Source: Mucinivorans hirudinis (lineage in GTDB: Bacteria > Bacteroidota > Bacteroidia > Bacteroidales > Rikenellaceae). From it: DNA of 64,000 nucleotides. The notes beneath the pieces are model-generated. The model made no database searches. It was not told the origin of the DNA and saw only the letters and a program-made list of their open reading frames with translations. The position numbers and the translations under genes were made by a program. The stretch spans positions 2,450,798-2,514,797 of the forward strand of contig HG934468.1 in NCBI GenBank assembly GCA_000723505.1, in the 5' to 3' direction. Below, one piece after another: positions 26,059 to 64,000 of the stretch (positions are counted from its first letter, which is position 1; each line of letters begins with the position of its first letter).

Positions 26059-27401
<1,343 letters not shown>

Positions 27402-27407
27402 AAACTA

Positions 27408-27584: not shown

Positions 27585-27634
27585 GATAGTATTTGTTTCT
27601 TTGCTCTCGGGTTATTGTTAGTTGTTGTTTTAGT

Positions 27635-27680: not shown

Positions 27681-27685
27681 TTTTT

Positions 27686-28803: not shown

Positions 28804-28875
28804 CGTTTGTCTCCTTTTTTATGAGACCAAAGATAACCAAATTATAGCTTAAACTGCTGTCCTATTTTGGGGGAG

Positions 28876-28983: not shown

Positions 28984-28986
28984 GCG

Positions 28987-29985: not shown

Positions 29986-29998
29986 AAAGATTAAAACA

Positions 29999-44269: not shown

Positions 44270-44538
44270 TTAGCCGTTATATGTTTCATTTAAGCTCTGA
44301 AGTTTGCCTGCAAGTGCCTGCATATCGTTACCTATTTTGGAATCGGTAATTCGGGCGTAGATCTGAGTGGTTTTTATATTGGTGTGCCCCAGCATTTTAG
44401 AGACAGTTTCAATCGGCACACCCTTAGCGAGCGTAATGGTTGTTGCGAAGGTATGACGAGCAAGGTGAAAGGTCAAATTCTTCTCCAGACCACACAAATC
44501 ACCAATCTCCTTGAGGTAGGCATTCATTTTTTGGTTGC
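44270..44538 (-). pseudogene. Resident tyrosine integrase, C-terminal part
   Basis: Reads NQKMNAYLKEIGDLCGLEKNLTFHLARHTFATTITLAKGVPIETVSKMLGHTNIKTTQIYARITDSKIG: the HxxR motif, the LGH motif and the catalytic tyrosine of a Bacteroidota integrase. Everything before NQ is missing here and is found at 63413-64000, on the same strand, ending VLPVMSNQ. The open frame to 44557 continues into island DNA. The gene was split by the island at 44539-63419. Confidence 0.88.
44532..44538. other. Left attachment core of the island
   Basis: TGGTTGC occurs here and at 63413-63419, at the exact points where the integrase homology breaks. On the minus strand the wider sequences CCTGTTATATGCAACCA (here) and CCTGTAATGAGCAACCA (right side) agree at 14 of 17 bases, as expected for recombining att sites. 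Confidence 0.75.
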
Positions 44539-44887
44539 ATATAACAGGGTATGTCATATGTTTTTGTAATTCAGATATTTACAATAGAGCTTAGGGTGAA
44601 GTGCTAACGGATTTGCAACGTGGTGTATGCTGCTTATTGCTTTTGGTTGCATAGCGGATTCGTTGCTTGTAGCGTTCCTTGCTCGTGAATATAAAGGTAT
44701 AAAAAAAGGATGAATTTACAAGAAATTCACCCGTTTTCTTTATTTCATTTTTATTTTCAATGCTCATAAGATTACCTGTAGCCTTTTGATAAATCTAATG
44801 GTTTTAAGAAGCGGTAAATTTCAATTAATCTTGTAATTCTGCCTGGCAACAAATAGTTGCTGATTATGCGTACTATCGAATAAAAAA
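44539..44887. other. Left end of island, non-coding
   Basis: About 350 bases without a gene. TTTTGGTTGCATA occurs at 44529-44541, across the junction, and again at 44641-44653, so it may be an integrase-binding repeat. A hairpin with arms GAATTT/AAATTC lies near 44711-44727. Confidence 0.5.
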
Positions 44888-44927: not shown

Positions 44928-45626
44928 CTAATCGGCGTTTCTGCTAATTTTCAGCGAGTTGATAAACCTCTTCAAAATTGTCGTTTGCGAGATAATCACT
45001 TTCCCGCTCAGCTTTTCATAAGGGGTAAGGAGCGAGTGGGGAGTGTCGCGAAAGTCGATTACGACCTTGTGTCGGTTGCCGGATGAGGCAAGGGGGGAGA
45101 TTTCACGCATATAACCGATAATATCTTCTGTGGCTGTGGTTTGCAAGATAACTTTGGAATTGGCGGCAATACGCGATTTGTCGCCCACTGAAATTTCTGC
45201 CGCACCGTAGTAATACAAGCTATCACGGGGAATTACAATGCAAATCAGAGAGCCGACACTTACGGCTTCCCTGCTCTTGGCATTGAAAACTACTCTGCCC
45301 GAAATAGGCGTGATGATTGGGGAGAGAGTCTCTCGATGGTAAAGGTAACCCACCGTGCCTCCCGCTTCGATGCTCTTCTCAATGGCTCCCGCGTGAACGA
45401 ATATACCATCTTCAACGGCATTTATCTCCCGAATTGCAGGGGTGGTACTTATCGTTACTTCAACGGGAACACTCTCTTGGTAAGGTATAAATGCCGAAAT
45501 TGAGACCATAGCCAACAATGCAGCACCGATAATGGCAGCGCCATACCTCAAAAGCATCGGAGGAATTTGACCGATGATGTTTCGCACTTTTTCACTACGT
45601 AGCTCAATATTTCTTTCCATTGTCAA
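44928..45626 (-). CDS. HlyD-like membrane fusion/adaptor protein
   Basis: A 232-residue protein with one N-terminal membrane helix (RYGAAIIGAALLAMVSISAFI, residues about 27-47) and a short periplasmic part containing a lipoyl-like hairpin (GTVGYLYHRETLSPIITPISGRVVFNAKSREAVSVGSLICIVIP) and a beta-barrel end. It lacks a long coiled coil, so it is shorter than classic HlyD proteins, as in several Bacteroidota peptide exporters. It overlaps the C39 ABC transporter gene by four bases and probably works with it to move peptide across the envelope. Confidence 0.82.
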   Translation of the reverse strand: MTMERNIELRSEKVRNIIGQIPPMLLRYGAAIIGAALLAMVSISAFIPYQESVPVEVTISTTPAIREINAVEDGIFVHAGAIEKSIEAGGTVGYLYHRETLSPIITPISGRVVFNAKSREAVSVGSLICIVIPRDSLYYYGAAEISVGDKSRIAANSKVILQTTATEDIIGYMREISPLASSGNRHKVVIDFRDTPHSLLTPYEKLSGKVIISQTTILKRFINSLKISRNAD

Positions 45627-47830
45627 CTTCCTAATTCTAACTGGTTTTTGACCAACTCGTAATACTTGCCTCTTTTAATGGTCAGCTCTTCGTGCGAGCC
45701 AATCTCCACAATCGTTCCGCCATCGAGAACCACTATCTGGTCGGCATTCTTAACCGTGCTCAATCTGTGGGCGACAACGACAACCGTTTTGCCTCGGTAA
45801 AAATCTTGCAGGTTCTCGACAATAGCTTTTTCGTTGTTTGCGTCCAAGGCATTGGTTGCTTCATCAAAAAAGACAAATTGCGGATTTTTATAGACCACTC
45901 GTGCGATAAGGATTCTCTGCCTCTGCCCCTGACTTACCCCCTGCCCATCCTGACCGATTAGCGTATTGTATCCCAGTGGCAGAGCTTCGATATAGTCGGA
46001 TATATTTGCTACACGGGCGGCATAACGCAGGCGCTCCAAATCCACCTCATCTTCGGATATGGCGATGTTGCGAGCGACGGTGTCCGAAAAGAGATAACCC
46101 TCCTGCATAACCGTGCCGCACATTGTACGCCACCAAGCGAGATTAAATTGGTCTATATTGACATTTCCCACCTCAATTTTACCTTCATTGAGTGAGTAAT
46201 AACCGAGCAGCAGTTTGATTAGCGTCGTTTTGCCGCTGCCGCTTGCCCCAACAATGGCTGTGACCTTGCCTTGCGGAATGCGAAGATTGATGTTATTGAG
46301 GACATAATCAGCCCTTGCCCCGTCATATTTGAAGCATAGATTCTCGATATGAATATCACTTTTATGAGGTAATTGAACAATTTCTCTGTTATCATCCTCT
46401 TCGTTTTGCTCTGTATGAATCTCGTTCATACGATCTAAGCTTATGCTCACATCCTGCCACTGATAGATGAATCCAAGTATCTGCTCAACAGGGCTATTGA
46501 GTTGTCCGATGATATATTGGATTGCCAACATCATACCCAAGGTCAGATTGCCGTTGATGACGGCTGCCGCCGCAACAACGGTTATCAAGGTGTTTTTTAG
46601 CTCGTTTATCAAGATGCTCCCCGCCTCCTGATTTTGTCGGAGTGTGAGCGATTTCAAATTCACATCGAAGAGGTTTGCCTGCACATCCTCCCACTCCCAC
46701 CGCTTGCGTTGTTCGCACCCTTGGAGCTTTATCTCCTGCATACCGTTGATAAGCTGATAGACCACATTTCGATTTATGCCCTGCTGCTCAAAGAATTTGT
46801 AATCCAAAATGCGCCGCTTCTTCAAAAATACGACTATCCAAAAACCGTAGATAATGCTGCCGATGATGAATATGAGAAAGATAGTCAAACTGTATATATA
46901 TAGCACTATCCCAAAAACGATAAAGCTGAATACCGAGAAGAGCATACCCAGTGTCTGAGCCGTAAGAAAGTTTTCTATACGCCTGTGGTCTTCGATTCGT
47001 TGTAACAAATCGCCTGTGAGTTTGGTGTCAAAAAACTTCATCGGCAACTTCATCAACTTGATAAAGAAGTCAGATATCAGCGACACATTGATACGCGTGC
47101 TTATGTGAAGCAATATTTTGCGGCGAATGAAGTCGATGGCTGTGCGGCTGAGAATGAGCATCAATTGTGCAATGAGTATCAGCCATATAAAACCTATATC
47201 CTTTCCGTTGATTCCCGTGTCCACAATGGCTTGTGTCAAAAACGGAAAAATGAGTTGCAAAATACTGCCAATGAGCAATCCGAGAATCAGGTGTCCGAAA
47301 AAACGTTTGTATTTCACGAGATAGCTGCCTAAGAATTTGAAGCGGTTGGCGGAGGGAACATAATCGCCCTCTTGCTCATAAAAGAGGCTTGTCGGCTCAA
47401 GCAACAACACTATTCCCTTCTCTTCGCTGTTGGTCTGGGTGCTAATCCAGTTGGTGCAAAACTCCTCTTTCGAGTAGCTTAGCAGCCCCTTGCCGGGGTC
47501 GGCAACTAATATCGTAACTTTTCCTTTACGACTCTTTTTGATGTCGTATACCACAACAAAATGGTTTTGCTTCCAGTGCACAATGCAGGGAAGTAAAACC
47601 TTCTCCGTGAGCTTATCAAAAGTCAATCTGCCGCCCAAAGTCCTGAAGCCAATCTTCTCCGCCGCCCTACTAATCCCGAGCAACGACACACCATCCTTGC
47701 CGATAAAGGAGTTTTGCCGCAACCCCTCAAGAGTGTACTTCTTGCCATAATGACCGGCAATCATACACAAACACGCGGGGCCGCAATCCATTGCGTCAGG
47801 CTGCTTAATAAATGACCATTTAGTTTTCAT
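45623..47830 (-). CDS. Peptidase-containing ABC transporter (C39 bacteriocin type)
   Basis: A 735-residue exporter. Residues 1-130 are a C39 peptidase with Gln10, Cys16 (AMDCGPAC), His90 (QNHFVVVYDI) and Asp111 (ADPGKG). Six membrane helices follow (about 165-450). The ATPase domain has GASGSGKTTLIKLLLG, GVSQGQRQRILIARV and FVFFDEATNALD, and a late AHRLSTVKNADQI. These enzymes cut leaders after a double glycine and export the core peptide. The likely substrate is the precursor at 51921-52127, which has such a site. All catalytic residues are present. Confidence 0.95.
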   Translation of the reverse strand: MKTKWSFIKQPDAMDCGPACLCMIAGHYGKKYTLEGLRQNSFIGKDGVSLLGISRAAEKIGFRTLGGRLTFDKLTEKVLLPCIVHWKQNHFVVVYDIKKSRKGKVTILVADPGKGLLSYSKEEFCTNWISTQTNSEEKGIVLLLEPTSLFYEQEGDYVPSANRFKFLGSYLVKYKRFFGHLILGLLIGSILQLIFPFLTQAIVDTGINGKDIGFIWLILIAQLMLILSRTAIDFIRRKILLHISTRINVSLISDFFIKLMKLPMKFFDTKLTGDLLQRIEDHRRIENFLTAQTLGMLFSVFSFIVFGIVLYIYSLTIFLIFIIGSIIYGFWIVVFLKKRRILDYKFFEQQGINRNVVYQLINGMQEIKLQGCEQRKRWEWEDVQANLFDVNLKSLTLRQNQEAGSILINELKNTLITVVAAAAVINGNLTLGMMLAIQYIIGQLNSPVEQILGFIYQWQDVSISLDRMNEIHTEQNEEDDNREIVQLPHKSDIHIENLCFKYDGARADYVLNNINLRIPQGKVTAIVGASGSGKTTLIKLLLGYYSLNEGKIEVGNVNIDQFNLAWWRTMCGTVMQEGYLFSDTVARNIAISEDEVDLERLRYAARVANISDYIEALPLGYNTLIGQDGQGVSQGQRQRILIARVVYKNPQFVFFDEATNALDANNEKAIVENLQDFYRGKTVVVVAHRLSTVKNADQIVVLDGGTIVEIGSHEELTIKRGKYYELVKNQLELGS

Positions 47831-47855
47831 ATTTTCACCTATATCTATCTTATGT

Positions 47856-50162
47856 CTATCTTATGTCTTTTATATCTTTATAACCCTGCATCCCCTCAGT
47901 TGCACTAACTTGGACCTTCTTACCACCCGAGAAACGCCAACGAACCGATAGCCCAATACTCTGAACAGGAGTTGTATAATGATAACTTATTGTATTGCCG
48001 TTTGCGTTTCTATCGTAGCGGCGACGGTTGCCAAGAGCATTAAAGTTTAGAGTGAATTGGAGAGCATCCTTGAATAGAGATTTATAGATTTGTCCGCCAA
48101 TATTATAAATTGCGTGGTAAGTACGGTCATAGTCACGGTATGTCGGCTCGAAGATGGCATTCAACATCGCACCCCAACCTTGCTTGAAGGTAAAATTATT
48201 ATTCAGGGTATGGTATTGACGAAATCTCGTGTCGCCGTAATGCACTCCTGCGATTGTGAGATTTTCAGGATGCACCTCCAAGCGAGATGATAGCTTCATC
48301 TTCCACTGCTTTACCGGATTCAGATTCAGCTCTACACCGACACCGTATGCCTCTTGCGATGGTAAATTTATCGGAGTCGTATAAAAAATCTCTGCAGAAC
48401 TCTGTTTGGTCTCCCAATATATACTATTGTTTGCTTTTATGTATAGTGCCGTAATATTAAAGATGTTACCAAACAATGAGACTCCTCCCATTAAGATGTC
48501 ATAGGTGGGAGCTTTCAGGTACGGATTACCGACAGTATAGTTATAGGGGTCTATCCAACGGATTGTCGATGATATTGCGGCGTAGGGTATATCGTCAAGA
48601 GAGTGTTTATAGTTGAACATCAGAGCATTTTTCCCGGACTCGCCCACCGGCATCATCATCTGCACAGTGGGGTTGATTCCCCACTGGGTATTGGAAATTT
48701 TTTCGCCTATTTTGTCTAACTCTTCATACTCTATTCCGTTGAGTTGCCAATTAATTCCGACACTGTATTGTATTTTCCAAAATGCACCCATCGCCTGTGC
48801 GTAGGCATGAGGTATCAAACCTTTTGTTCGTGTAGGAATTACACTAATTGGGAAATGTTGACTTTCGCTTATTGTGGGGTCATAAGCCGAAGAAATTAGT
48901 TGTACTGATGCTCCATATTTCAAAGATATTTTCTCACTGAGCGGATGTGTGATATCGGCGGATAACTTCCAAAGGTCAAGGGACGATTCGTAGTAAGATT
49001 TTTTCTGAGCCTCATTCTCGAATAAGTAATGAGAGTCGTATGAGGCACGACGGTTGTAGTAGTCGCCCACAACCTCTAACGATGCTCCGCGCTCGTTGAG
49101 CGTGGAAGAGTACTTTACGGTAGCCTCCTGCACGAGAGTAATATCTTGTGAAGAGATAGTCGATTTGTCGTTTGAGACGGTCTCTATAAACGGATTCTGA
49201 CGATTGGTAGATACATAGTAACTGCCGCTGATTTTGCTCCATTTGTCGATTTGCTGCGTGAGACTCAGGCGATTAGTCGCATTAAATCCTTTGATTCGGC
49301 TTTCTTCATAGATTTGCGTAATAAGCGATGATGATGTATTCCAAATTGTCTGCTCAGCACTTTCTCGATAGTTGTTCCAATTCAGCGACAGATTGTTATA
49401 TAGACTCAGATTCTTGTATCGGTAGTAAATCACTCCACCTAAATCCTCGCTCGATATTCCGTTCTTACTACTGTAATCTGCTCCGGCTGAAAGGCTGCCG
49501 TAGAAGCCGCCCTTTGGTGGTTGTCGCAGGGTGATGTCGATAGTCCCGCCACTGGCTGAGGCATTTTGATTGCCGCCGGCAAGATAATTTACTTTAACCT
49601 TATCAATCATATCGGCAGGCAATCTATTGAGTTCGTCAAGGTTGGTGAGCTTTACACCGTCAACATAGATTTCGCTCACGGTCAAGCCGTTGATTTTAAG
49701 ACGTGTATCTTCCTTGGTTACTCCCGGCAGGAATGTCAATGCGTCAGCGGTCTGCTTTCCCTTTACGATGTCGGATGCACGGAGATTAACAGTGTAGCCA
49801 TCAGCACTATGCTTAGTACGCTGTGCTATTACCACAACTTCTTTTATTACTTGGACATCCTCCTTCATAACCAATGTGCCGAGCGAACCGACTTCGCAAC
49901 TCTTTCGGATTGGCTCATAACCCAAAAATGAGAGCAGAATCGAGTATTTCTCGCCCTCTATGGCGGACAGTTCAAAACTTCCGTCTGAGCGACTTACGGT
50001 CGATGCAACATATACGCTGTCTGGCAATGTGCTCAGGATAATGCCGATGTATGGCAAGGGTTTTTGCTTTTCGTCTACTATTTTTCCGGTGATGGTTTGT
50101 GCTATTACAGGACTGGAAAGCAGACAAAATAGAGATATGATTGCGATAATTTTATTTTTCAT
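47856..50162 (-). CDS. TonB-dependent receptor-like outer-membrane protein of the RiPP cluster
   Basis: A 768-residue protein with a signal peptide ending at about residue 21 (PVIAQ), a carboxypeptidase-regulatory-like domain (TITGKIVDEKQKPLPYIGIILS, about 23-100), a plug (VVVIAQRTKHSADGYTVNL...LPGVTKEDTRLKINGLTVSEIYVDGVKL) and an outer-membrane beta-barrel of the OMP_b-brl_3 type. In peptide-export operons such proteins may release the product across the outer membrane or take it back. It overlaps the radical SAM gene by 11 bases and precedes the ABC gene by 25. Confidence 0.88.
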   Translation of the reverse strand: MKNKIIAIISLFCLLSSPVIAQTITGKIVDEKQKPLPYIGIILSTLPDSVYVASTVSRSDGSFELSAIEGEKYSILLSFLGYEPIRKSCEVGSLGTLVMKEDVQVIKEVVVIAQRTKHSADGYTVNLRASDIVKGKQTADALTFLPGVTKEDTRLKINGLTVSEIYVDGVKLTNLDELNRLPADMIDKVKVNYLAGGNQNASASGGTIDITLRQPPKGGFYGSLSAGADYSSKNGISSEDLGGVIYYRYKNLSLYNNLSLNWNNYRESAEQTIWNTSSSLITQIYEESRIKGFNATNRLSLTQQIDKWSKISGSYYVSTNRQNPFIETVSNDKSTISSQDITLVQEATVKYSSTLNERGASLEVVGDYYNRRASYDSHYLFENEAQKKSYYESSLDLWKLSADITHPLSEKISLKYGASVQLISSAYDPTISESQHFPISVIPTRTKGLIPHAYAQAMGAFWKIQYSVGINWQLNGIEYEELDKIGEKISNTQWGINPTVQMMMPVGESGKNALMFNYKHSLDDIPYAAISSTIRWIDPYNYTVGNPYLKAPTYDILMGGVSLFGNIFNITALYIKANNSIYWETKQSSAEIFYTTPINLPSQEAYGVGVELNLNPVKQWKMKLSSRLEVHPENLTIAGVHYGDTRFRQYHTLNNNFTFKQGWGAMLNAIFEPTYRDYDRTYHAIYNIGGQIYKSLFKDALQFTLNFNALGNRRRYDRNANGNTISYHYTTPVQSIGLSVRWRFSGGKKVQVSATEGMQGYKDIKDIR

Positions 50163-51459
50163 TTCTATTCAAATTTTTTACGTCATGAAAATATTTCTTA
50201 ATATTCATATCTGCATTTCCCCTGACAGCTGGAATTGGACATTTGTCATCCATTGATTCAAACCGTTGCTGAAAGCAAATTGTACATATTGGGAGAAGAC
50301 GACAATCAGAGCACTGAGATGTCAACCTATTCCTTTTCCTCAAGTATGCATTATCATTTAGGATAATTTCACCTGATGATGACAGATGACCTATGCGATT
50401 TTCAGGCTTAAAATCTCTTGCAGTACATTTATAGACGTCACCATTGTAGTTGGCTACATAGTTATTATCAAAATCACCATAACAAGGAGATATACTATCT
50501 CCAAGAAATGACTGAATATTAGACTGAAAAGTCATGCCAGAAACTTTGTCTTTTAATTCATTTATTTTGGAATGAAGTTCTAAGGTCTCAGGTTCTTGCC
50601 ATACTTTGTGAAATGAAAATCTTAAATTAGGAAATTCCCAATACTCTCGAAAATCATCAACTAAAAATTTGAAGGAATCCAAGTTTTCGAGAGTATAGTT
50701 ACATCTAATAGTGGTTAAAATTTCATTCTGTATAGCATTAAAAAGATTACTCTTTACAATGTCATAGCTACCCAAGCCCGAAGGAAAGCACTTGACTTTA
50801 TTGTGAAAATCCCGACCTCCGTCAAATGCAACCTGCACGCTGATTTCTGATGATAAATTTTTAAGCTCTTCTACTACTTTGTTTGTTAAACAGACACCAT
50901 TAGTTGTAAAACTAACTACCAATTTTTTTTCATACTTAGTACAAATACTTTTCACAGTTTCGGCTAGCGGTTTCACAACTTTTTTATATTGCAATAACGG
51001 TTCTCCTCCAAAGAACGACAATTGAACCTTCTTTAGAGTTTGTGACTTAACAGAGTTCTCTATGAAAAGCTCTACACCTTTAATAATGTCATTGGTCATT
51101 ACACTATCCTTGACGTGATTTTCGTAGCAATACCAACATTTTAAGTTACAATCCAAAGTTGGATTTACAGTAATTCGCAGAATCTCATCTGAACTAAATT
51201 TTCGATCAATCGCATTTACGCACTCTGCTACTTCATTAATTTCATCAGAAATTACGAATCTATCATCAAGCAAACTTTTGTAAAGGTCTGGATGAATTTT
51301 TGAGATTTTTGTTGGGTCATCCGAACTACTCTCAATCAGACTCGCTAACCTTTTATCTAAAGTCAATAATTTGCTCCTAAAGTAGTTGTAGAAAAAAACA
51401 ACTTCATTATCTTCAGAGCTATCAATCAACTTATTGTATATACTCCATTTCATATACAT
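50152..51459 (-). CDS. Radical SAM/SPASM peptide-modifying enzyme
   Basis: About 435 residues from MYMKWSIYNKLID. The radical SAM cluster motif is in NPTLDCNLKCWYC (residues 104, 108 and 111), followed by SFFGGEPLLQYK. The C-terminal SPASM region has SPCYGDF, VYKCTARDF, CSDCRLLPICTICFQQ and DDKCP, binding extra iron-sulfur clusters. Such enzymes form thioether or carbon-carbon cross-links in RiPPs. The open frame extends to a TTG at 51495, but those codons belong to an inserted ISL3 fragment. Before that insertion the gene could have started further upstream at MLFTNFRFSLNN, now 51859, and run on in frame. Confidence 0.9.
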   Translation of the reverse strand: MYMKWSIYNKLIDSSEDNEVVFFYNYFRSKLLTLDKRLASLIESSSDDPTKISKIHPDLYKSLLDDRFVISDEINEVAECVNAIDRKFSSDEILRITVNPTLDCNLKCWYCYENHVKDSVMTNDIIKGVELFIENSVKSQTLKKVQLSFFGGEPLLQYKKVVKPLAETVKSICTKYEKKLVVSFTTNGVCLTNKVVEELKNLSSEISVQVAFDGGRDFHNKVKCFPSGLGSYDIVKSNLFNAIQNEILTTIRCNYTLENLDSFKFLVDDFREYWEFPNLRFSFHKVWQEPETLELHSKINELKDKVSGMTFQSNIQSFLGDSISPCYGDFDNNYVANYNGDVYKCTARDFKPENRIGHLSSSGEIILNDNAYLRKRNRLTSQCSDCRLLPICTICFQQRFESMDDKCPIPAVRGNADMNIKKYFHDVKNLNRNEK

Positions 51460-51469
51460 TAAATTATTA

Positions 51470-51822
51470 GGTTCTACTGGTTTTCGTGTGGGCAAAGTTT
51501 GAGGTTTGTATTGAAGAATAGTATTGCGGTTCTGAAGTTTTCAAATTTATGGTATCCTCTGCCTATTCTTTTTATCTCTTCGATAGAGCTGTTTAACCTC
51601 TCTGCTTTTGCATTACTTGAGCCGGTTAGTATCGCATTTACAATTCCGTAATTACCATTTGATTGTTATAGACAAGTTCAATACGAACTTCCTCTTTTTG
51701 CTCGTCGATGTCTACACTTCCTATAGACCAATCACTGTTCGTAGGCAATAATAATTTACTCAATACTTCGGTTGCTGTCATTCGGCAAAGATAACTATTC
51801 TCACACGAAATCCTGTAGAACC
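51470..51822 (-). mobile_element. ISL3-family deletion derivative with 8-bp target repeat
   Basis: The inverted ends GGTTCTACTGGTTTTCGTG (51470) and GGTTCTACAGGATTTCGTG (from 51822, minus strand) are flanked on both sides by AATTATTA (51462-51469 and 51823-51830). Inside, the first residues of an ISL3 transposase (MTATEVLSKLLLPTNSDWSIGSVDIDEQKEE, from 51781) are joined to its C-terminus (NAKAERLNSSIEEIKRIGRGYHKFENFRTAILFF). Most of the transposase is deleted. It sits right before, or in, the start of the radical SAM gene. Confidence 0.88.
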
Positions 51823-51920
51823 AATTATTAAGGGAAAAGCGAAAGTTGGTAAATAGCATTGAGTGTAGATTATTTGCTTTCTTCCGCTCTTCCCATTTTT
51901 TTTATCAACAATAATAATTA

Positions 51921-52127
51921 CTACACTTCTGGTTTTTCCTCTGCATTGATGTTGCAATTTTTGCAAGTACCAGTGCAATTAGTGTTAGTATCACCCCATC
52001 CACCACCTAAACAATTGCCATTGGTTGCCCATAAATCGGATTCGATTTTCAGTGGTTGATTAGAGAAACCGCCGTGAAGCATTCCAGCTTCATCTTCGGT
52101 CAATTGTGAAATTTTCATTTTTTCCAT
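51921..52127 (-). CDS. RiPP precursor peptide with double-glycine leader
   Basis: A 68-residue peptide. The leader, MEKMKISQLTEDEAGMLHGG, ends in Gly19-Gly20, the cleavage site for C39 peptidases; it resembles the GG-Bacteroidales precursor leaders (TIGR04149-like). The 48-residue core begins FSNQPLKIESDLW and contains Cys39, Cys51, Cys55 and Cys58 with the stretch CLGGGWGDTNTNCTGTCKNC, then an acidic tail ending KPEV. Clustered cysteines near Gly, Thr and Asn fit thioether formation by the radical SAM enzyme. Met4 is an alternative start. No second precursor was found nearby. Confidence 0.82.
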   Translation of the reverse strand: MEKMKISQLTEDEAGMLHGGFSNQPLKIESDLWATNGNCLGGGWGDTNTNCTGTCKNCNINAEEKPEV

Positions 52128-52351
52128 TGATTTAAATTATTAGTTTATTATTGCCTATTCATATAGCTTTTCGGCTTACGCTCCTTTTGTCAGTGTGGTC
52201 TGAACTATAATTTTACCGGTATAAAATATGGTCTTAGTTTTACAATATTTTGGGTAGCTTAAACAAAATCATCACTATTCTTTTCCTACTCTATATAGGA
52301 TTTTCGGCTTTCTCCCTTCTTGCAAGAATATTATTAGACTTCGATTGTCTG
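52128..52351 (-). promoter_or_regulatory. Leader region of the precursor with a duplicated hairpin
   Basis: Two related segments on the minus strand, AAGCCGAAAATCCTATATAG (around 52281-52313) and AAGCCGAAAAGCTATATGA (around 52150-52178), can each form a short hairpin (TCCTA/TAGGA and GCTAT/ATAGGC). Between them lies TACCCAAAATAT (52245-52256 region), half of the palindrome seen at the regulator. The -7 box for this gene is not clear. Confidence 0.4.
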
Positions 52352-52981
52352 TCAATGCTTTATTAGAGATAGTTGTTTATGATTATTGTAGAAAAATTCA
52401 AGCCCATCCCTTGTAACGTACATCGGTATTGTCAATGAGCCGAGATATTCAATACCATCGGACAGTGGTTTTGCTGCAATACCCATTAGATGAAGCATTC
52501 TCAGAAGTTTGGAATCGCATTCTGATAGCATTACTCCCCTTTCATATCTGCAAATCAGAGATATAACACTACTCATCAAAATCTTAAAAACCACAACCCC
52601 AAGTCTGCCAACTTTTGAACTTATTGCGAATCTACCAATATGCCATATACGTTCATTACAACGAGTTGGAACAATATGATTGAATGGGTCTATGCTGAAT
52701 AACTTTGTCATCGGAAGAGTGTCTTTACGATTCCATTCCAATATCCTTATTGCTCCAACAATATCCATTTTTTCATCCCTTGCAATAAAAATCCGTGAGT
52801 ACCCCAAGTAATGCAACTCTTATTCGAATACTTGCTTAGCTTCGATTTCAATTATTCTTTCGGAAGTGCTCTGATGATGCTTTTAGTTTTCGGTAACGAT
52901 AAACTTTGCAAGTTCATAGAGGTTCTCGTTAGATAGCTCCCAAAATGAGTATCCTTCGTAAGAGTTGATATACTTGTCCAT
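52352..52981 (-). pseudogene. FeeM-type N-acyl amino acid synthase, broken by two stops
   Basis: From the ATG at 52981 the frame reads MDKYINSYEGYSFWEL...FIVTEN, then TAA (codon 33), then 20 codons, a second TAA (codon 54), and the rest ELHYLGYSRIFIARDEKMDIVGAIRILEW...ERIWHIGRFAISSKVGRLG...SECDSKLLRMLHLMGIAAKPLSDGIEYLGS. The body resembles FeeM/LuxI-like GNAT acyltransferases that make N-acyl amino acids from acyl-ACP. A good -7 box (TACCTTTG, minus strand, 53009-53016) and a regulator palindrome lie upstream. Translation from the TTG at 52816 would lack the N-terminal region. Confidence 0.72.
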
Positions 52982-53038
52982 TTTTGGTTTTGGTGTTAAT
53001 TTCTACTGCAAAGGTATGGTGCATTCCAAAGCCCTCCT

Positions 53039-53055
53039 ATACCCAAATAGGTAAT
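53039..53055 (-). promoter_or_regulatory. Palindromic operator before the FeeM-type gene
   Basis: ATACCCAAATAGGTAAT on the plus strand. It lies 22 bases upstream of the -7 box of the acyltransferase gene, the same spacing as at the E1-like gene, and it matches that site at 15 of 17 bases. Confidence 0.65.
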
Positions 53056-53075
53056 ACTGTATTGTAAGATAAAGA

Positions 53076-53115
53076 ATTACCCATTTGGGTAATAGACATA
53101 ATTTTTATACCTTTG
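53076..53115 (+). promoter_or_regulatory. Perfect palindrome and promoter of the LuxR-type gene
   Basis: ATTACCCATTTGGGTAAT (53076-53093) has perfect seven-base half sites around ATTT. The -7 box TACCTTTG follows at 53108-53115, 14 bases later, so a protein bound here could activate or repress the regulator gene itself. Confidence 0.7.
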
Positions 53116-53137
53116 CATAGAAAAATTGTACTCCGAG

Positions 53138-53899
53138 ATGGTTAATCAAACAGATTTCTTCATCAGTGAAAACATAATTGAACATATTCCCGCTGAGGAG
53201 TATTTCAAGATTGACCACATTATCGAGGATGTGGATGCCTTCGCACGTACCACATACAAAAGCGTATATGTAATTGATTATTACAGGCAATCATTCCTGT
53301 ATGTCTCTGAAAACCCTCTGTTTCTGTGTGGTTTGACAGCCGAGCGTGTCAAGGAGTTAGGATACAATTTCTACATAAACCACACCACACCCGAAGACCT
53401 GACAATGTTGTTGGAAATCAATAGAGCAGGTTTCAAATTCTTTGAGAAAATTCCAAATGAGCATAGAAAGCAATATACAATCTCGTATGATTTTCAAATT
53501 ATTAACAAAGAGTATCGAAATAAAAGTCTTATCAATCACCAAATAACCGCCCTCAGACTGACAAGTGACGGAAAGATTTGGCTCGGTTTATGTGTCGCAT
53601 CGGTATCTTCTGCCGACAATTCGGGCAATATAATGATGTTGAAAAATAAATCTCGTGACTATTGGGAGTACAACAGGGTCTCTCAACACTGGGAACAGAG
53701 ACTCAGACCCGAATTAAAGGAGATAGAGAAAGATGTGCTGAAACTTTCTGCAATGGGCTACACTATGAACGAAATTGCCGATACAGTGAACCGCTCCGTA
53801 GATTCTGTAAAGGTGTATCGAAAGAATTTATTTGAAAAACTTGGCGTTGACAACATTGCCGAAGCAATAAATTATGCGATGAACCATAGACTTTTATAG
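53138..53899 (+). CDS. PAS-LuxR transcription regulator
   Basis: About 253 residues from MVNQTDFFISENIIEH; a TTG at 53126 is less likely. The N-terminal and middle part (SVYVIDYYRQSFLYVSENPLFLCGLTAERVKELGYNFYINHTTPEDL) is a PAS-like sensor. The C-terminal part, LKEIEKDVLKLSAMGYTMNEIADTVNRSVDSVKVYRKNLFEKLGVDNIAEAINYAM, is a LuxR helix-turn-helix. It is divergent from the FeeM-type gene and probably controls the cluster through the ATTACCC-4-GGGTAAT sites. The PAS ligand is unknown; an N-acyl product of the neighbouring enzyme is a possibility. Confidence 0.88.
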   Translation: MVNQTDFFISENIIEHIPAEEYFKIDHIIEDVDAFARTTYKSVYVIDYYRQSFLYVSENPLFLCGLTAERVKELGYNFYINHTTPEDLTMLLEINRAGFKFFEKIPNEHRKQYTISYDFQIINKEYRNKSLINHQITALRLTSDGKIWLGLCVASVSSADNSGNIMMLKNKSRDYWEYNRVSQHWEQRLRPELKEIEKDVLKLSAMGYTMNEIADTVNRSVDSVKVYRKNLFEKLGVDNIAEAINYAMNHRLL

Positions 53900-53933
53900 A
53901 AAAGAGGGACTTGAAAATTCAAGTCCCTCTTTT
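53900..53933. terminator. Terminator after the LuxR-type gene
   Basis: AAAAGAGGGACTTGAA and its perfect complement are separated by two bases and flanked by A and T runs. It ends the regulator gene. Confidence 0.9.
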
Positions 53934-54050
53934 CTGTTAAGTAGGGGAAAATAATTATTGGTGTGTTTTTAGAAGTTAATTTTTACATAAATTCTGTCGT
54001 CATTCGGCAATTCAAGCAAGCTTGATTGCTCTCATTCCTAAGAATTTTGA

Positions 54051-54118
54051 GCAGATTTTTTGTTTGAAAGTTGCGATTTTATTGGAATAAATGAGTGTTT
54101 TTCAAACAAAAAATCTGC
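54051..54118. repeat. 19-bp inverted repeat between convergent genes
   Basis: GCAGATTTTTTGTTTGAAA (54051-54069) and its exact complement (54100-54118) enclose 30 bases. It lies 45 bases after the end of the E1-like gene on the minus strand and may be its terminator. Confidence 0.65.
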
Positions 54119-54162
54119 CAAAAAGGAACGATAAAAATGTATCAATAATTCTTTTTCACTAC

Positions 54163-54921
54163 TTAATTTCTATCATCAATAATTGAGGAGAGATAGAATT
54201 TCGGATAGCGTTTAACGGGCTGTCCGGTTGCGATAAAAAATATGATATTGGTGCACAACCCACCAACAATCCACGAGGCAATAGAGAGTTGCGGAGGGGG
54301 CAGTACTGCATCTTCATTTTTATACTGTGTGATAATATTTTCAATCCACGGCTTGGGCACGTTCCAAAATTTGAAGTAATTGACAATGTGCTCTATCAGT
54401 TGCACTTCAAAATTTCGCGGTTCCTTTGCAAACTCTTTTAGTTGGATACCGGTAGGTTCAACTAAAATAACCATACCTCCCCACCCGATATTGTAGGGGT
54501 GCAGCACGGGAATCGAATATTTCTTACACCAATCGTCAAAAACAAACGGGATGTCAGATTTGAAGTCCAACGCATTTATTGCAATATCGTGGTCTCGTAC
54601 GATTTCCTCCACATTGTCGTGGTCAATAAATTTGTTTATCACAGTGATATCTGCACCCGGATTGATGCTTAATAATCTCTCTGCTAATGCTTCTGCCTTT
54701 GGTTTTCCAATATCCTCGACGCGATAATTTTGCCGATTCAGATTAGACTCCTCAACAACATCACCATCTACAATAGTAATCGTTTCAAAGCCGAACCTGA
54801 GAGCACATTCCGCAATAATGCTGCCTATACCTGCGCCTCCCAATAGTACCCGATAGTTTTTGATTAGATTTTGCTCCTCGGGACGAACATAAATCCTGTT
54901 TCTGCTGTATCTCATTGTCAT
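54163..54921 (-). CDS. E1/ThiF-like adenylating enzyme
   Basis: A 252-residue protein with the nucleotide-binding VLLGGAGIGSIIAECALRFGFETITIVDGDVVEESNLNRQNY, typical of ThiF/MoeB/HesA enzymes, and VINKFID...HDIAINALDFKSD with the following catalytic region. The zinc-binding CxxC pairs are missing. It ends in a hydrophobic GGLCTNIIFFIATGQPV segment. These enzymes activate a C-terminal carboxylate with ATP. No ubiquitin-like partner is near, so the target could be a peptide or amino acid. The promoter has the same operator and spacing as the FeeM-type gene. Confidence 0.85.
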   Translation of the reverse strand: MTMRYSRNRIYVRPEEQNLIKNYRVLLGGAGIGSIIAECALRFGFETITIVDGDVVEESNLNRQNYRVEDIGKPKAEALAERLLSINPGADITVINKFIDHDNVEEIVRDHDIAINALDFKSDIPFVFDDWCKKYSIPVLHPYNIGWGGMVILVEPTGIQLKEFAKEPRNFEVQLIEHIVNYFKFWNVPKPWIENIITQYKNEDAVLPPPQLSIASWIVGGLCTNIIFFIATGQPVKRYPKFYLSSIIDDRN

Positions 54922-54931: not shown

Positions 54932-54978
54932 CAAAGGTCGTCATAGCTGCAATTTCACACAATACCCAAAAGGGTAAT
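54932..54978 (-). promoter_or_regulatory. Operator and promoter of the E1-like gene
   Basis: ATACCCAAAAGGGTAAT (54962-54978, plus strand) lies 22 bases upstream of the minus-strand -7 box GACCTTTG (54932-54939). The IS-A copy begins 11 bases beyond the operator, so the control region was spared. Confidence 0.65.
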
Positions 54979-54988: not shown

Positions 54989-56439
54989 GTCGCCCCTTAA
55001 AAGCCATTCAACACGCTGATTTATTGTAAATTAATAGTAATTATTTTTGGATTAGTCTGCAATTTTTCGTATCTTTGTGTTATAAACCTTGCAAAATTGA
55101 GCTATGTTACCACGCCCCAAAGATACTCTGCAAAGCAGCCTTTTCTTCGACCTTAGAAGCACCTTAAACCACCGCCACCCGCTCTTCCAACTCGCCAACA
55201 AAATCGACTGGGCGATGTTTGAGCGAGAGTTTTCGCCACTCTACTCACCGGATAAAGGAGTCGAAGCAAAGCCAATACGACTGATGGTTGGATTGCTGAT
55301 ACTAAAACATATACGCAATGTTTCGGACGAAAGTGTTGTAGAGCAGTGGAGCGAAAATGTATATTATCAATACTTCTGTGGAGGTACTGAATTTGTCGCG
55401 GCACAACCTATTGATGCGAGTAGTTTAGTGCATTTTCGCCACAGAATTGGCGAGGCTGGGTTTGAGTTGATTTTGGCAGAGAGTATCCGCGTGAATGATG
55501 ATGTAGATTTCGACAAGCCGCAAGTTGTTTTTGTAGACACGACTGTACAAGAGAAGAACATAACATATCCCACTGATGCTAAGTTACATAAGAAGATAGT
55601 TGAGAATTGCAGAGGTATAGCTGCAAAATCGGGTGTTACCCTTCGTCAGAGTTATGCTCGGGTTGTCAAGGCGTTGAATAGAGATATCCGTTTTAATAAA
55701 AAGCAGAGCAAGGCAGCTCGCCGTAAGCTCAAGTGCATAGCAGGGCGATTGGTCAGGGAGTTAGATAGAGAGTTGCCTTTGGAATCATTACACAGAGAGC
55801 AGATAGATTTGTATAAGAGAGTTTTATCTCAGACTAAAGATAGTAAGAACAAGGTATATTCATTGCACGAGCCTAGTGTTTGTTGCATCTCTAAGGGTAA
55901 GGAGCACGAGAAATGGGAGTTTGGGAACAAGGTTTCTGTGGCGTACAATGAAGATGGATTGATAGTTGGGGCGTTGTCGTTTCGTAATGAGTATGATGGG
56001 CACACACTTTTGCCTGCTATTGAGCAGGTTGTACGATTGAATCATCGCCCTATAAAGATTGTTCCGTGCGACAGGGGTTACAAGGGTGTTTCACAGGTTT
56101 TGGGTATTCCTGTTTTGATACCGAGCAATGGTAAGGGCTGTAAGAGTGAGTATGAGCGAAAGAAGCTGAAGAAGTTGTTCGCGCAAAGAGCAGGTATAGA
56201 ACCAATTAATGGGCACTTAAAGAGTGACCACCGGATGGGTCGTAACTTTTACAAAGGTATATTTGGTGATAATATCAATTCTATGCTCGCCGCCGCCGCA
56301 TTCAACTTCAAAAGAGCTATGAATGTTCTTTTGGACTATATTTTGCGATGGATATCACAGCTATTTGAACAAAATATCTCCATAAAACCCCAAAACTAAA
56401 AGAACCCTGAAAACGAAAATGCCCCTTTTAAGGCACGAC
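54989..56439 (+). mobile_element. IS1182-like element IS-A, copy 2
   Basis: A 1451-bp copy with the same ends as the one at 15016, flanked by TAAATA (54983-54988 and 56440-56445). It lies inside the island between the E1-like gene and the mobilisation genes. Confidence 0.93.
55104..56399 (+). CDS. IS1182-family transposase (IS-A copy 2)
   Basis: A 431-residue transposase identical to that at 15131-16426 except near the C-terminus (WISQ, KPQN). Catalytic stretches DTTVQEKNITYPTD, CDRGYKG and EPINGHLKSDHR are intact. The near identity means one copy is the recent source of the other, or both come from a third. Confidence 0.93.
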   Translation: MLPRPKDTLQSSLFFDLRSTLNHRHPLFQLANKIDWAMFEREFSPLYSPDKGVEAKPIRLMVGLLILKHIRNVSDESVVEQWSENVYYQYFCGGTEFVAAQPIDASSLVHFRHRIGEAGFELILAESIRVNDDVDFDKPQVVFVDTTVQEKNITYPTDAKLHKKIVENCRGIAAKSGVTLRQSYARVVKALNRDIRFNKKQSKAARRKLKCIAGRLVRELDRELPLESLHREQIDLYKRVLSQTKDSKNKVYSLHEPSVCCISKGKEHEKWEFGNKVSVAYNEDGLIVGALSFRNEYDGHTLLPAIEQVVRLNHRPIKIVPCDRGYKGVSQVLGIPVLIPSNGKGCKSEYERKKLKKLFAQRAGIEPINGHLKSDHRMGRNFYKGIFGDNINSMLAAAAFNFKRAMNVLLDYILRWISQLFEQNISIKPQN

Positions 56440-60233: not shown

Positions 60234-60596
60234 TTAATTACAAAAATTATCTTTCGCTTCACTGACTCTGATATATATAGGTTGCAAATTGCTCCGCATC
60301 ATCTTACACATTATCCACTGCCGAAACAATTCCGCTTTGTGTGATTGAATCCGAAACGCTACTGCCACAACCATATCCAACCCGTGATAATCCGGTACAA
60401 CGTTGCAACCAACCAACGTTGCGCCACCCGTCATGTTAGCCGTTGCAACACCTGTTTTGAGAATTGCACGTATATTGGAACGTATGGTCGGCACCATTAC
60501 CCCGAACAATTCGGCAATCTCAAAATCTCGCATCTGCACATTTGCAGGCACGATTACCGTGCCGTTATCACTGATTTTTACCATATCTCTTTTCAT
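60234..60596 (-). CDS. RhuM-like DNA-binding protein next to integrases (island)
   Basis: About 120 residues from MKRDMVKISDNGTVIV; the frame extends to 60656, but the early part lies in the integrase gene. RDFEIAELFGVMVPTIRSNIRAILKTGV and YHGLDMVVAVAFRIQSHKAELFRQWIMCKM are the RhuM-like hallmarks, as in the protein at 43721-44101. The start overlaps the integrase end by 29 bases. It may regulate integrase expression or recombination direction. Confidence 0.68.
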   Translation of the reverse strand: MKRDMVKISDNGTVIVPANVQMRDFEIAELFGVMVPTIRSNIRAILKTGVATANMTGGATLVGCNVVPDYHGLDMVVAVAFRIQSHKAELFRQWIMCKMMRSNLQPIYIRVSEAKDNFCN

Positions 60597-61884
60597 ACCT
60601 ATCTCTAAATTCAAAATAATTATACTCCTCCACGATTGGCATATCCCTGTCTTCAAAGAGCTTGAATTTACTTTTGCTGCTCTTGACTATCCGCTTCATA
60701 TCATCACCCACCTTTTTATTACTCATACGTGCGTAGATCTCGGTAGTTTTCAAATCTTTATGTCCCATCATCTTGGCTACCGTCTCAATAGGCACATCGT
60801 TCAGCAGAGTAATCAGCGTTCCGAAATTATGGCGACTTTGGTGGTATGAGATGGGCTCTTTTAGTCCGCAAAGTTTTTGCATCTTACCCAGATTCTCGTA
60901 CATCGTAGACCACGTAGTCATATTAAAGAGCCTCTCGCTTTTACGCTCACTCCGATATTTATCAATGATTTTCAGCGGAATATCAAGCAGAGGGACATAA
61001 CATTCCGTGCCCGTCTTTTGTCGCTTGAAGGTGAGGTGCTTATCCCCTTTATTGTTAATGCCTATGTTTTTATCCGTCAGTTTTACAACATCCGAAAATG
61101 AAGTGCCTGTAAATGTGGAAAATATAAACATATCACGACTAAAACAGAGGGCTTTCGATTTAACCTCTGTTGTCATCAGCTTGTGCAAATCCTCTTCTAT
61201 TTGGTGGCGACACTCCGGTGGTACTACATCAAACTTATACCCCACAAATGGATCTTTGCGTAGCGTTCCTTGATTTATTGCACATTTGATAACTCGCTTG
61301 AGTGAAATGGCAACCCCGTTGGCTGTATTTACAGACAATCCCTTTTCTCCCCTTAGAAAGAGCATCATATCTTCTAAGAACCTAAGGTTCAATTTGATTA
61401 GCTCTATATCTTCTGCACCATATTGAGATTTTATAAAATCGGCAATGTAGTTGATCGCATAGTGGTACATCAGAAAGCTTTTCTCTTCTCTATTAACCCC
61501 AACCATCTGTTTGTACTGCTCGTTATGCTCCCGAAAGAGTTCAAGCAACATATCGGTTTTCTGTCCGATGTTGCAAACTCTGTTTTTCAGAAGCTCTGCC
61601 GTTACATACCCCTGCTGCTTAATAAAATCCTTATGATAGCCGGTAATCGCATCTGTTAGCTCCTGTAATTGGTTGTTGATTTCAATGGACTCACGCTCTC
61701 GCCCTTTCAGACGATACCTTTTAGCATCCCAAAGAGTTGGATCTACTTCAATCTGTGTTGAGAATTGAACCATCTCACCGCTAACCGATATGCGCCCCAT
61801 AACGGTGGTCGTACCGTTTTTCTTGATTCGCCCTTTGTTGATGTAAAACATCACAGCAAAGGTGTTATACTTTACCTTATCCAT
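60568..61884 (-). CDS. Tyrosine recombinase, second integrase of the island
   Basis: A 438-residue IntDOT-like recombinase. The N-terminal arm-binding domain begins FAVMFYINKGRIKKNGTTTVMGRISV; a core-binding SAM-like domain follows. The catalytic domain has FTGTSFSDVVKL (the first arginine is replaced by serine, as in other IntDOT-like enzymes), YHQSRHNFGTLI and MMGHKDLKTTEIYARM with the tyrosine. It starts one base after the first integrase stop, so the two are cotranscribed. Confidence 0.92.
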   Translation of the reverse strand: MDKVKYNTFAVMFYINKGRIKKNGTTTVMGRISVSGEMVQFSTQIEVDPTLWDAKRYRLKGRERESIEINNQLQELTDAITGYHKDFIKQQGYVTAELLKNRVCNIGQKTDMLLELFREHNEQYKQMVGVNREEKSFLMYHYAINYIADFIKSQYGAEDIELIKLNLRFLEDMMLFLRGEKGLSVNTANGVAISLKRVIKCAINQGTLRKDPFVGYKFDVVPPECRHQIEEDLHKLMTTEVKSKALCFSRDMFIFSTFTGTSFSDVVKLTDKNIGINNKGDKHLTFKRQKTGTECYVPLLDIPLKIIDKYRSERKSERLFNMTTWSTMYENLGKMQKLCGLKEPISYHQSRHNFGTLITLLNDVPIETVAKMMGHKDLKTTEIYARMSNKKVGDDMKRIVKSSKSKFKLFEDRDMPIVEEYNYFEFRDRYEKRYGKNQ

Positions 61885-61885
61885 C

Positions 61886-63112
61886 TTATAAGTTTGCTAA
61901 ATGATATTTTCCTTTGATGCTTTTGGCAAGTTGCTTCATATCGCTATCCACTTTCTCATAAGATATTTGAGCGTAGATACGAGTGGATTTTATCGTGCTG
62001 TGCCCCAGCATCCGACTGACTGTCTCCATCGGGATACCTTGGGAGAGCGTAATGACACTGGCGTAGCAGTGCCGGGCTGCGTGAAAGCACAAGCACTTAT
62101 CTATACCGCACATTTGTGCTATCTTCTTTAGGTGTAGGTTGGTCTTTACATTACTCAACATTCTGAATACGTGTTCGCCATCGGTTGAGCCCCTATACTT
62201 GTCAATCAATTTTATAGGCAGGTCTAATAGAGGGACGTGAAATTCTACGCCTGTTTTAATACGTTTAGAGTGAATCCACACTGTCCCATCATCATTTGTT
62301 GCGAGGTCGCTATATTTCAGGTTGCGAAGATCACTAAATGAGATGCCTGTAAAGGCTGAAAACAGAAATAGGTCTCTCACCAAATACCTGCTTGGAATAT
62401 CGAGAGGGGTAGTCATAATCTGCTCAAGCTCCTGACGTGTCAAGGTCTTAGGCTTTGACTCTTCGCCTTCGCTGCGGAATGATATAAATGGGTCAAAAAC
62501 AATTACATCATCGGTAATTGCAGATTTAACCATCAGCTTGATTTTGCCGATTATACCGACAACGCTATTCGCTTTGAATTTTCGTTCTATGCGCAGATAG
62601 TGGTCAAATTTCTCGATAAAGGAGTAATCCAAGGCACCAAATGAGATCTCTTTGAGGTTGTATTTTGCTTTTATGAACTCCCTTAGATATTTGAAAGCTA
62701 TACGATATTGCTCGCAACTCTTTGCTTTCAGGTTGATGCCAACACGCTGAAGCATCATTTTGTGGAATTTATCACAATAGCCGAGCAGGGACTCTTGTCC
62801 CGATGCCATACCTTGAAAGGCTACTACAACTTCTTTCGGGGTGGCTGTACCTTTTCGCTCGATTAGCTCCTCGTAACTTGTGTGAATAGATACAGCGATC
62901 TTGTCTAAGGCGCGGTTTAGGTCGGTAGCAACCTTGCTTTTGCCTAATGCTCTGGCTGCTTTAATATCCCATAGGGATATAGCAACACTTAATTTGGCAC
63001 TAAATTGTGCCATCTGCTTGCCGATGGTGATGCGCCCCATAATTGGAACGGTTCCATCCTTTCTTATCTCTTTGTGCCGGAGATAAAAGCTAACTTTTAG
63101 TTCGTTACCCAT
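61886..63112 (-). CDS. Tyrosine recombinase, first integrase of the island
   Basis: A 408-residue recombinase nearest the right attachment site. The arm-binding part is VSFYLRHKEIRKDGTVPIMGRITIGKQMAQFS; the catalytic domain has FTGISFSDLRNLKYSDL, FHAARHCYASVITLSQGIPMETVSRMLGHSTIKSTRIYAQIS. As in its partner, the serine form of the first arginine motif is present. Together they probably make the island insert into and leave the resident integrase gene. Confidence 0.92.
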   Translation of the reverse strand: MGNELKVSFYLRHKEIRKDGTVPIMGRITIGKQMAQFSAKLSVAISLWDIKAARALGKSKVATDLNRALDKIAVSIHTSYEELIERKGTATPKEVVVAFQGMASGQESLLGYCDKFHKMMLQRVGINLKAKSCEQYRIAFKYLREFIKAKYNLKEISFGALDYSFIEKFDHYLRIERKFKANSVVGIIGKIKLMVKSAITDDVIVFDPFISFRSEGEESKPKTLTRQELEQIMTTPLDIPSRYLVRDLFLFSAFTGISFSDLRNLKYSDLATNDDGTVWIHSKRIKTGVEFHVPLLDLPIKLIDKYRGSTDGEHVFRMLSNVKTNLHLKKIAQMCGIDKCLCFHAARHCYASVITLSQGIPMETVSRMLGHSTIKSTRIYAQISYEKVDSDMKQLAKSIKGKYHLANL

Positions 63113-63412
63113 AATAATAAATTTTACTGTGATTTTTACGTCACAAAATTACTTTATCACGAGCAACAGAACGCCATCAAGATATACGCAAAATAGCGAA
63201 TAGTAATCTTAATATCAAATAGTTAGTCTCTACAAATTGCGTCATACTACATTCAGATAAACTGCTAACGCAATCGTAACGTAACTACTTCGTAAAACCA
63301 CTAAAAACTGCATTTACACCACTTAGCAATCTATTGCAGTTTTACCACATACAGCACACAATATCAGTAGTTTACTTCATTTATCACTCTATTGCATTTT
63401 TAGGTTGTTATC
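63113..63412. other. Right end of island, non-coding
   Basis: Three hundred AT-rich bases between the integrase start and the right att core. Apart from the repeated ATTGCA(G/T)TTTTA sites and the short integrase leader, I see no feature. Confidence 0.55.
63302..63402. promoter_or_regulatory. Candidate integrase arm-type sites
   Basis: Three related short sites: TAAAAACTGCATT (63302-63314, inverted), ATTGCAGTTTTA (63333-63344) and ATTGCATTTTTA (63391-63402). They lie between the first island integrase and the right core site, where arm-type sites are expected. Confidence 0.5.
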
Positions 63413-63419
63413 TGGTTGC
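63413..63419. other. Right attachment core of the island
   Basis: TGGTTGC, the partner of 44532-44538. The resident integrase homology (VLPVMSNQ) ends at this point, and the following codons (ITT, then a stop) come from island DNA. Confidence 0.75.
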
Positions 63420-64000
63420 TCATTACAGGCAGTACCAACTGACAGGGGAGTTTGCCCGAATACTTTTCGATAATCATTCGTGGCACATCAAGCAACAGAA
63501 CATTGACCGGGTTGTCAGTCTTTTGGCGTTTGGTCATAATCCACACCTTGCCATCAAAGGAAGTCCTTACATTACTGTGAGTTAAGTTGCGAACATCGAC
63601 ATACGAAAGCCCCGTGAAGCAACAAAACACAAACACGTCACGCACTTGGTCTAACCTCTTTATGTTAATCTCTTTAGACATCATTGTCTCTAACTCCTCA
63701 TTGGTGAGATAACCTCGGTCAACTCTGTTGAGTTTGATGTGGTAGTTGGCAAAGGGGTTAGACGAAATCATTCCGTTGTTGAAGGCAAGGGTAACTATCT
63801 TCTTGAGAAACATTATCATCTTGGCTGCTACATTGTTGCTCAGACTGCAATTTGTTCGCAAGAAAAGTTCATAATCACGGATGAAATTGAGATTTAGCTC
63901 TTTTAGAGATATATCCGAGAGGTTGTATTGGTAGCGTAAGAACTCCTCGACACGACGCATTGCGAGGTCGTACTTCTTATATGTGGAGCGAGTAGTGCTA
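63413..64000 (-). pseudogene. Resident tyrosine integrase, N-terminal part (runs off window)
   Basis: The frame is open past the right window edge. It reads TRSTYKKYDLAMRRVEEFLRYQYNLSDISLKELNLNFIRDYELFL, the core-binding domain, then TNEELETMMSKEINIKRLDQVRDVFVFCCFTGLSYVDVRNL and TGKLPCQ-like sequence up to VLPVMSNQ. The HxxR, LGH and tyrosine motifs are missing here; they lie at 44270-44538. Without excision of the island the resident element lacks this integrase. Confidence 0.88.

Follow-up and report, generated by a model that had tools for sequence, protein, structure and literature searches.

Among the Bacteroidales, clusters for ribosomally synthesized and post-translationally modified peptides (RiPPs) have been described in which a radical S-adenosyl methionine (SAM) enzyme stands with a precursor carrying a Gly-Gly (GG) motif and a C39 peptidase-containing ABC exporter (PCAT), some of them together with a membrane fusion protein (MFP) and an outer-membrane protein (OMP), according to the section on these clusters in Fernandez-Cantos et al. 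2023 (PMC10352776). In Streptomyces scabies, the PAS-LuxR activator CfaR is co-transcribed with ORF1, whose product has a ThiF domain and strengthens the activation of a biosynthetic cluster, as a passage of PMC4380410 relates. For the Bacteroidota, a 2026 review (PMC13419125) credits Linares-Otoya et al. (Nature 2025, doi 10.1038/s41586-025-09418-9) with the discovery of N-acyl-cyclolysines (ACLs) and describes the ACL system as widespread in samples from gut and mouth. Here, a locus of Mucinivorans hirudinis in which a RiPP operon adjoins genes for ThiF-, LuxR- and FeeM-like proteins is compared with these systems. It lies within a 64,000-nucleotide stretch of contig HG934468.1 (hereafter the window), part of a 3.15-Mb genome in a single contig.

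It is likely that the locus combines two linked units, a RiPP operon (A) and a signaling module (B), the module very probably being an ACL circuit. Between 52127 and 44928 the minus strand encodes, in this order, a precursor, a radical SAM/SPASM enzyme, a barrel protein of the CarboxypepD_reg/OMP type, a C39-ABC exporter and, last, a short HlyD-like protein; upstream of the precursor are a FeeM-like gene (minus strand), a LuxR gene (plus strand) and a ThiF gene (minus strand). The initial annotation had taken all of these for one new RiPP system. Its radical SAM/C39 part stands, but the inclusion of the FeeM- and E1-type genes is not supported, the same block being found beside lanthipeptide, nonribosomal peptide synthetase (NRPS) and NHLP-type clusters.

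A conserved ThiF-LuxR-FeeM module

The ThiF/E1-like enzyme (252 residues, intact; 54163-54921, minus strand) matches PF00899 at 1e-36, and the PAS-type LuxR-family regulator (also intact; 53126-53899, plus strand, with an ATG at 53138) carries the GerE domain PF00196, which confirms the E1-type gene and the LuxR regulator proposed at the outset. A scan of genome contigs seeded on ThiF gave 40 loci. At 34 of the 37 from Bacteroidota (L071-L107), ThiF, LuxR and FeeM stand in the order plus, minus, plus, so placed that LuxR, the transcription factor, lies between the two putative synthesis genes; a search seeded on FeeM returned 14 matches in 392 genomes of the phylum, 13 of them adjoined by LuxR. 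Downstream of the triad lie lanthipeptide sets of the LanB/LanC/luciferase-like type, NRPSs, clusters with NHLP leaders and radical SAM+C39 clusters. Because these product classes have nothing in common, the triad that accompanies them is best read as regulation and not as tailoring. In Bacteroides sp. UBA7333 (L079), the series ThiF-LuxR-FeeM-precursor-radical SAM-OMP-C39-HlyD reproduces the order of the window, and in a Tenacibaculum locus (L107) the triad is followed by an OMP, two precursors, a radical SAM enzyme from the tree group of the window's enzyme, and a C39 protein. We are confident that the block is a regulatory or signaling module outside the RiPP chemistry, and very probably the ACL circuit of Bacteroidota.

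The module also has its own DNA sites. The shared operator suggested by the initial annotation is present as three 16-bp copies: an imperfect one, ATACCCAAATAGGTAA (53039-53054), with one mismatch to WTACCCN4GGGTAW; TTACCCATTTGGGTAA (53077-53092), with perfectly palindromic arms, in the divergent LuxR/FeeM promoter, where relatives have equivalent sites; and ATACCCAAAAGGGTAA (54962-54977), free of mismatches, upstream of ThiF. At zero mismatches this pattern has two copies in the whole genome, those at 53077 and 54962. The usual form in relatives is CTACACN4GTGTAG, with CTACCCN4GGGTAG in Kordia. Perfect palindromes in the LuxR-FeeM regions number 29, at 19 of 36 loci, against an expectation of 0.0086 per 250 bp, and these counts are not independent since many of the loci are close relatives (Chryseobacterium). 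The expectation was computed from the parts of these loci outside the LuxR-FeeM regions and is if anything too high, because the remaining sites at the inspected loci stand either upstream of ThiF or upstream of the biosynthetic gene that comes first after FeeM.

Some loci carry only part of the module. On a Riemerella plasmid, found in a plasmid search with ThiF, homologues of ThiF and LuxR (54% and 46% identity) adjoin each other; this pair, from Riemerella anatipestifer (L060:8995-12124), has no FeeM and adjoins a 45-residue cysteine-rich open reading frame (ORF; MHDLTVTGTCLTNCTRDNKC...) and an ABC ATPase, with ACACTTTTGT-type sites near both promoters. One locus (L142) has FeeM and ThiF without LuxR. 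As a separate observation, three nearly identical 41-residue peptides ending in CSSSSSCCG stand beside ThiF/LuxR in a Tenacibaculum locus (L105:8434-8974); they form a different cysteine-rich family, and a Rieske oxygenase is encoded nearby.

Probable assignment to acyl-cyclolysine signaling

The original ACL study reportedly describes acylation of lysine followed by ATP-dependent cyclization; a dedicated transcription factor reportedly senses the product and controls co-localized operons for secreted products, and structures of a key enzyme are reportedly included. In a circuit of this kind, the FeeM/LuxI-fold acyltransferase would acylate lysine, the ThiF-like enzyme would activate the carboxylate with ATP and close the lactam, and the PAS-LuxR protein would bind the product and act at the 16-bp palindromes before LuxR/FeeM, before ThiF and, in relatives, before the biosynthetic operon.

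The individual proteins are consistent with these roles. The ThiF protein is 47-78% identical to 26 homologues, and its glycine-rich loop together with D52, N62, R63, Q64, K75 and D119 is conserved in at least 90% of them. Close homologues have been solved (PDB 9egb/9egc/9egd, E 6e-97); a literature search found no paper naming 9EGB-D. Judged from its sequence, the protein is probably the enzyme of ATP-dependent cyclization in the ACL pathway. The LuxR protein, single-copy in the genome and 41-66% identical to 27 homologues, is modeled as a PAS domain joined to a helix-turn-helix (HTH) domain (predicted local distance difference test, pLDDT, 91). Foldseek matches the model to 3clo, from Bacteroides, and to VqmA-autoinducer complexes; in the VIA comparison most of the listed matches cover the HTH only, and those to VqmA are longer, at Z 10.9-11.5 with large root-mean-square deviations (rmsd). 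The protein is a probable ACL receptor, ACL being its putative ligand. Literature searches for FeeM with LuxR in Bacteroidetes, or for LuxR, ThiF, an acyltransferase and quorum sensing together in that group, found no paper.

Four points weigh against the ACL assignment, or against its extension to the RiPP operon. The match of these genes to the ACL pathway is indirect, drawing on the reported outline of the pathway and on circumstantial agreement. Six flavobacterial loci found from the FeeM end (L135-L137, L139-L141), which mostly adjoin NHLP-type or NRPS clusters, show LuxR-FeeM with no ThiF in the fetched stretch, so that the triad is not obligatory. The 3' fragment of the window's acyltransferase, described below, might still act. 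Finally, the window has no strict operator before the precursor and a transposon remnant may uncouple precursor and maturase genes, so that LuxR control of the RiPP operon is putative here.

The interrupted acyltransferase

The FeeM/LuxI-like gene of the window (209 codons; 52352-52981, minus strand) begins at 52981 and is broken in frame by two TAA stops (52883-52885 and 52820-52822); a search of the window's own genome counted the same two. A 154-residue ORF is the 3' part of this interrupted gene. The acyltransferase of the initial annotation is thus upheld as to FeeM-type homology but not as an intact gene. Over about 205 residues the frame is 43-44% identical to the intact gene of locus L071; its second stop falls at the invariant E55, and the A140 and A154 columns, invariant in 25 relatives, are substituted. 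It is the sole FeeM match in the genome.

Pfam FeeM matches 20 of the 25 family members, and no credible match came from searching PDB sequences with the FeeM profile. The intact L071 relative gave a structure model (pLDDT 88) for which VIA-align 2 ranks FeeM on top (Z 15.1, rmsd 3.2, 171 residues aligned), followed by LasI, TofI, RpaI and BjaI at 14.9-14.2; the lead of FeeM and the acyl-homoserine-lactone (AHL) synthases is small, since generic GNATs start at Z 14.1, with SbzI at 14.1 within tie range. The modeling suggests a FeeM/LuxI-like fold for these relatives.

Because the acyltransferase is cut by two nonsense codons, the strain is probably unable to make its own ACL; it would probably sense ACLs while lacking the acylation step itself, and would depend on a signal from neighbors or on their N-acyl-lysine as supply for the intact ThiF protein. 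LuxR and ThiF are kept beside damaged FeeM elsewhere too, by an internal deletion (L073), a truncation (L074) or reduction to a fragment (L143), and FeeM is absent from the Riemerella locus (L060). It is possible, if somewhat doubtful, that these are receiver-only ACL circuits, in which the acyltransferase was lost repeatedly by different lesions with LuxR and ThiF intact, and in which signals or N-acyl-lysine precursors from other species switch on peptide production. The cases number five, which is few, and draft assemblies may contribute to them; as most loci were seeded on ThiF, the comparison is mainly one of FeeM with LuxR.

Precursor, maturase and proposed export of the peptide

The 68-residue precursor that was first proposed, with its leader ending in Gly19-Gly20 and its core cysteines at 39, 51, 55 and 58, is found at 51921-52127 (minus strand) in the ORF translation and in an alignment of eight sequences. 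M1, G19, G20, C39 and C58 are invariant in all eight, which were hand-picked for GG and cysteines, so that this invariance shows compatibility and is not an unbiased test. Membership in TIGR04149, the GG-Bacteroidales precursor family, was rejected, the precursor having no NCBIfam match at E values up to 0.1.

The maturase (50152-51459, minus strand) is a radical SAM/SPASM enzyme as predicted, with a PF04055 match, the motif CNLKCWYC (CxxxCxxC; C102, C106 and C109) and seven SPASM-type cysteines (C324, C343, C381, C384, C390, C393 and C405), all counted from the methionine at 51453. The start at TTG 51495 did not hold: homology begins at the ATG at 51459 or 51453, one of which is probably the start because the upstream TTG lies in a transposon tail. 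The best NCBIfam models, aligned nearly full length, are CefB (NF038107; 149 bits against a cut-off of 600) and TIGR04463 (142 against 525). The enzyme is outside both and corresponds to none of the maturases named in NCBIfam. Across 393 genomes of the order, the relatives closest to it share 29-36% identity, and a plasmid search returned distant matches only.

In the tree, the enzyme pairs with that of L033 (support 0.78) inside a wider group (support 0.99) that includes L032-L037, L039, L041, L044, L051 and L107. The neighbors of these related enzymes include genes for small peptides rich in cysteine, of which several (L032, L034, L036, L107) have a GGF junction, and NGNC/NGTC motifs are common to the window's core and the candidate peptides of L033 and L037. 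The initial annotation would have given way had precursor homologues lacked the GG and cysteines, or had the SPASM enzyme always kept a different precursor; what is found is that related precursors keep both features and that related enzymes pair with GG-leader peptides bearing cysteine clusters. For this reason an rSAM-modified, C39-exported RiPP is well supported, and the peptide is a plausible candidate for a new radical SAM product. The SPASM enzyme would modify the precursor, most likely by thioether or other cross-links at the C-terminal cysteines, and the C39 domain would cleave it after Gly19-Gly20.

The PCAT, the HlyD-like protein and the barrel protein would carry the peptide out, the surface location first proposed for it being putative. 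The C39-peptidase ABC transporter of the initial annotation is secure (45623-47830, minus strand; PF03412 at 8e-31, PF00664, PF00005). The supposed TonB-type receptor (47856-50162, minus strand) is an outer-membrane beta-barrel protein with matches to OMP_b-brl_3 (PF14905, 1.4e-48) and CarboxypepD_reg (PF13715), which do not demonstrate a TonB type; it is a candidate outer-membrane exit or receptor. The HlyD-like adaptor (44928-45626, minus strand), a short membrane fusion protein, is backed by its position and by relatives in the same position, including one at 63% identity in the paralogous cluster L051, but not by Pfam or NCBIfam, where it has no match.

Cluster L051 (G000:C1:1052000-1071000) is a second radical SAM/OMP/PCAT/HlyD cluster. 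Compared with window 45417-47831, its exporter is 98-99% identical at the DNA level and is interrupted by an insertion sequence, and the HlyD start is identical; the radical SAM, OMP and distal HlyD sequences have diverged. A near-identical exporter amid diverged neighbors suggests that the exporter cassette was exchanged or converted between the two RiPP clusters. The 3.15-Mb genome holds about nine PCAT-type exporter loci; several are split or cut short, in some cases by insertion sequences.

Mobile DNA around the locus

Between the precursor and radical SAM genes lies an ISL3-family deletion derivative (51466-51824, approximate ends, minus strand), for which L065 holds one 356-bp match at 96% and L067 two; a 73-residue ORF between the two genes is transposon sequence. 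The derivative (about 356 bp) is present in some six copies; other places in the genome carry it at 95-96% identity, and full-length ISL3 copies are many. The surroundings of the locus hold a nearly identical pair of IS5-type transposases (15131-16426 and 55104-56399) and, identified by eye, further transposases (23495, 27686, 33887), a reverse transcriptase (32555), conjugation-type genes (26045-32002), a relaxase-like gene (56562) and tyrosine recombinases (60568-63960); together these genes place the locus in mobile-element DNA. A C-terminal fragment of a tyrosine recombinase (44270-44557), just downstream of the HlyD-like gene, is a possible integration relic.

Alternative explanations

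A different role for the FeeM- and E1-type proteins would be tailoring of the peptide itself, by N-acylation as in lipidated RiPPs and by C-terminal activation as by MccB or PaaA. The two genes do lie near the precursor, the E1 matches include MccB and PaaA, and E1-like enzymes activate peptide C-termini in some RiPPs (reviewed in PMC12250964). Against this, the block is linked with LuxR and the operators, and FeeM is broken here where the RiPP genes are open. The recurrence of the block beside clusters of the NRPS, lanthipeptide and NHLP types, whose products are unrelated, decided the matter, and tailoring, which we consider very unlikely, was rejected. A classical LuxI/LuxR circuit with an AHL signal would account for the LuxI-like fold of the model and for the lux-box-like palindromes, and C4-homoserine lactone production is on record for Tenacibaculum and other Bacteroidetes (PMC4304359). 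The receptor here, however, models as PAS, and the linked extra E1-like enzyme has no part in AHL synthesis. PF00765, the autoinducer synthase family, had no match in the window's genome, in a search where no control genome matched either and which thus had no positive control; among 198 Bacteroidota genomes, two had matches above the cut-off, both partial. An AHL system is therefore extremely improbable.

The whole locus could also be a decaying relic from which no peptide is made. The two nonsense codons in FeeM, the ISL3 remnant within the operon, the many insertion sequences of the flanking mobile DNA and the interruption or truncation of several PCAT genes elsewhere in the genome all speak for decay, whereas the LuxR, ThiF, precursor, radical SAM, barrel, PCAT and HlyD-like frames are open with their motifs conserved, and three operator copies remain. 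We judge a relic unlikely. On the preferred reading, that of an ACL module beside a RiPP operon, the puzzling set of E1-like enzyme, acyltransferase and LuxR protein is assigned to a signaling circuit found beside biosynthetic clusters of many classes in Bacteroidota, and its operator signature offers a means of finding the clusters that the circuit controls. The broken signal-making step is a natural case in which cross-species induction of peptide production is directly testable.

Comparison with known systems

In its RiPP operon the window repeats the Bacteroidales design of radical SAM enzyme, GG precursor, PCAT, MFP and OMP as set out in the section on such clusters in PMC10352776; that section gives an HTH protein and a two-component system as regulators and does not mention the ThiF/LuxR/FeeM triad. 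The maturases that score best against the window's enzyme, CefB and TIGR04463, act on cysteine-rich peptides, with scores far below their cut-offs. The CfaR/ORF1 pair resembles the window in joining a PAS-LuxR protein to a ThiF-domain protein, but ORF1 of S. scabies also has a nitroreductase domain, and the passage describing it mentions no FeeM-like gene (PMC4380410). The ACL system, as the review presents it, belongs to the same phylum as the triad of the window (PMC13419125). FeeM, ThiF, LuxR and the operators of the window would fit the lysine acylation and ATP-dependent cyclization, the dedicated factor and the controlled operons that are reportedly part of that system; the window differs in that its acyltransferase is a pseudogene, the probable receptor and cyclase remaining. 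What is particular to the window is the broken acyltransferase together with the remnant between precursor and radical SAM genes.

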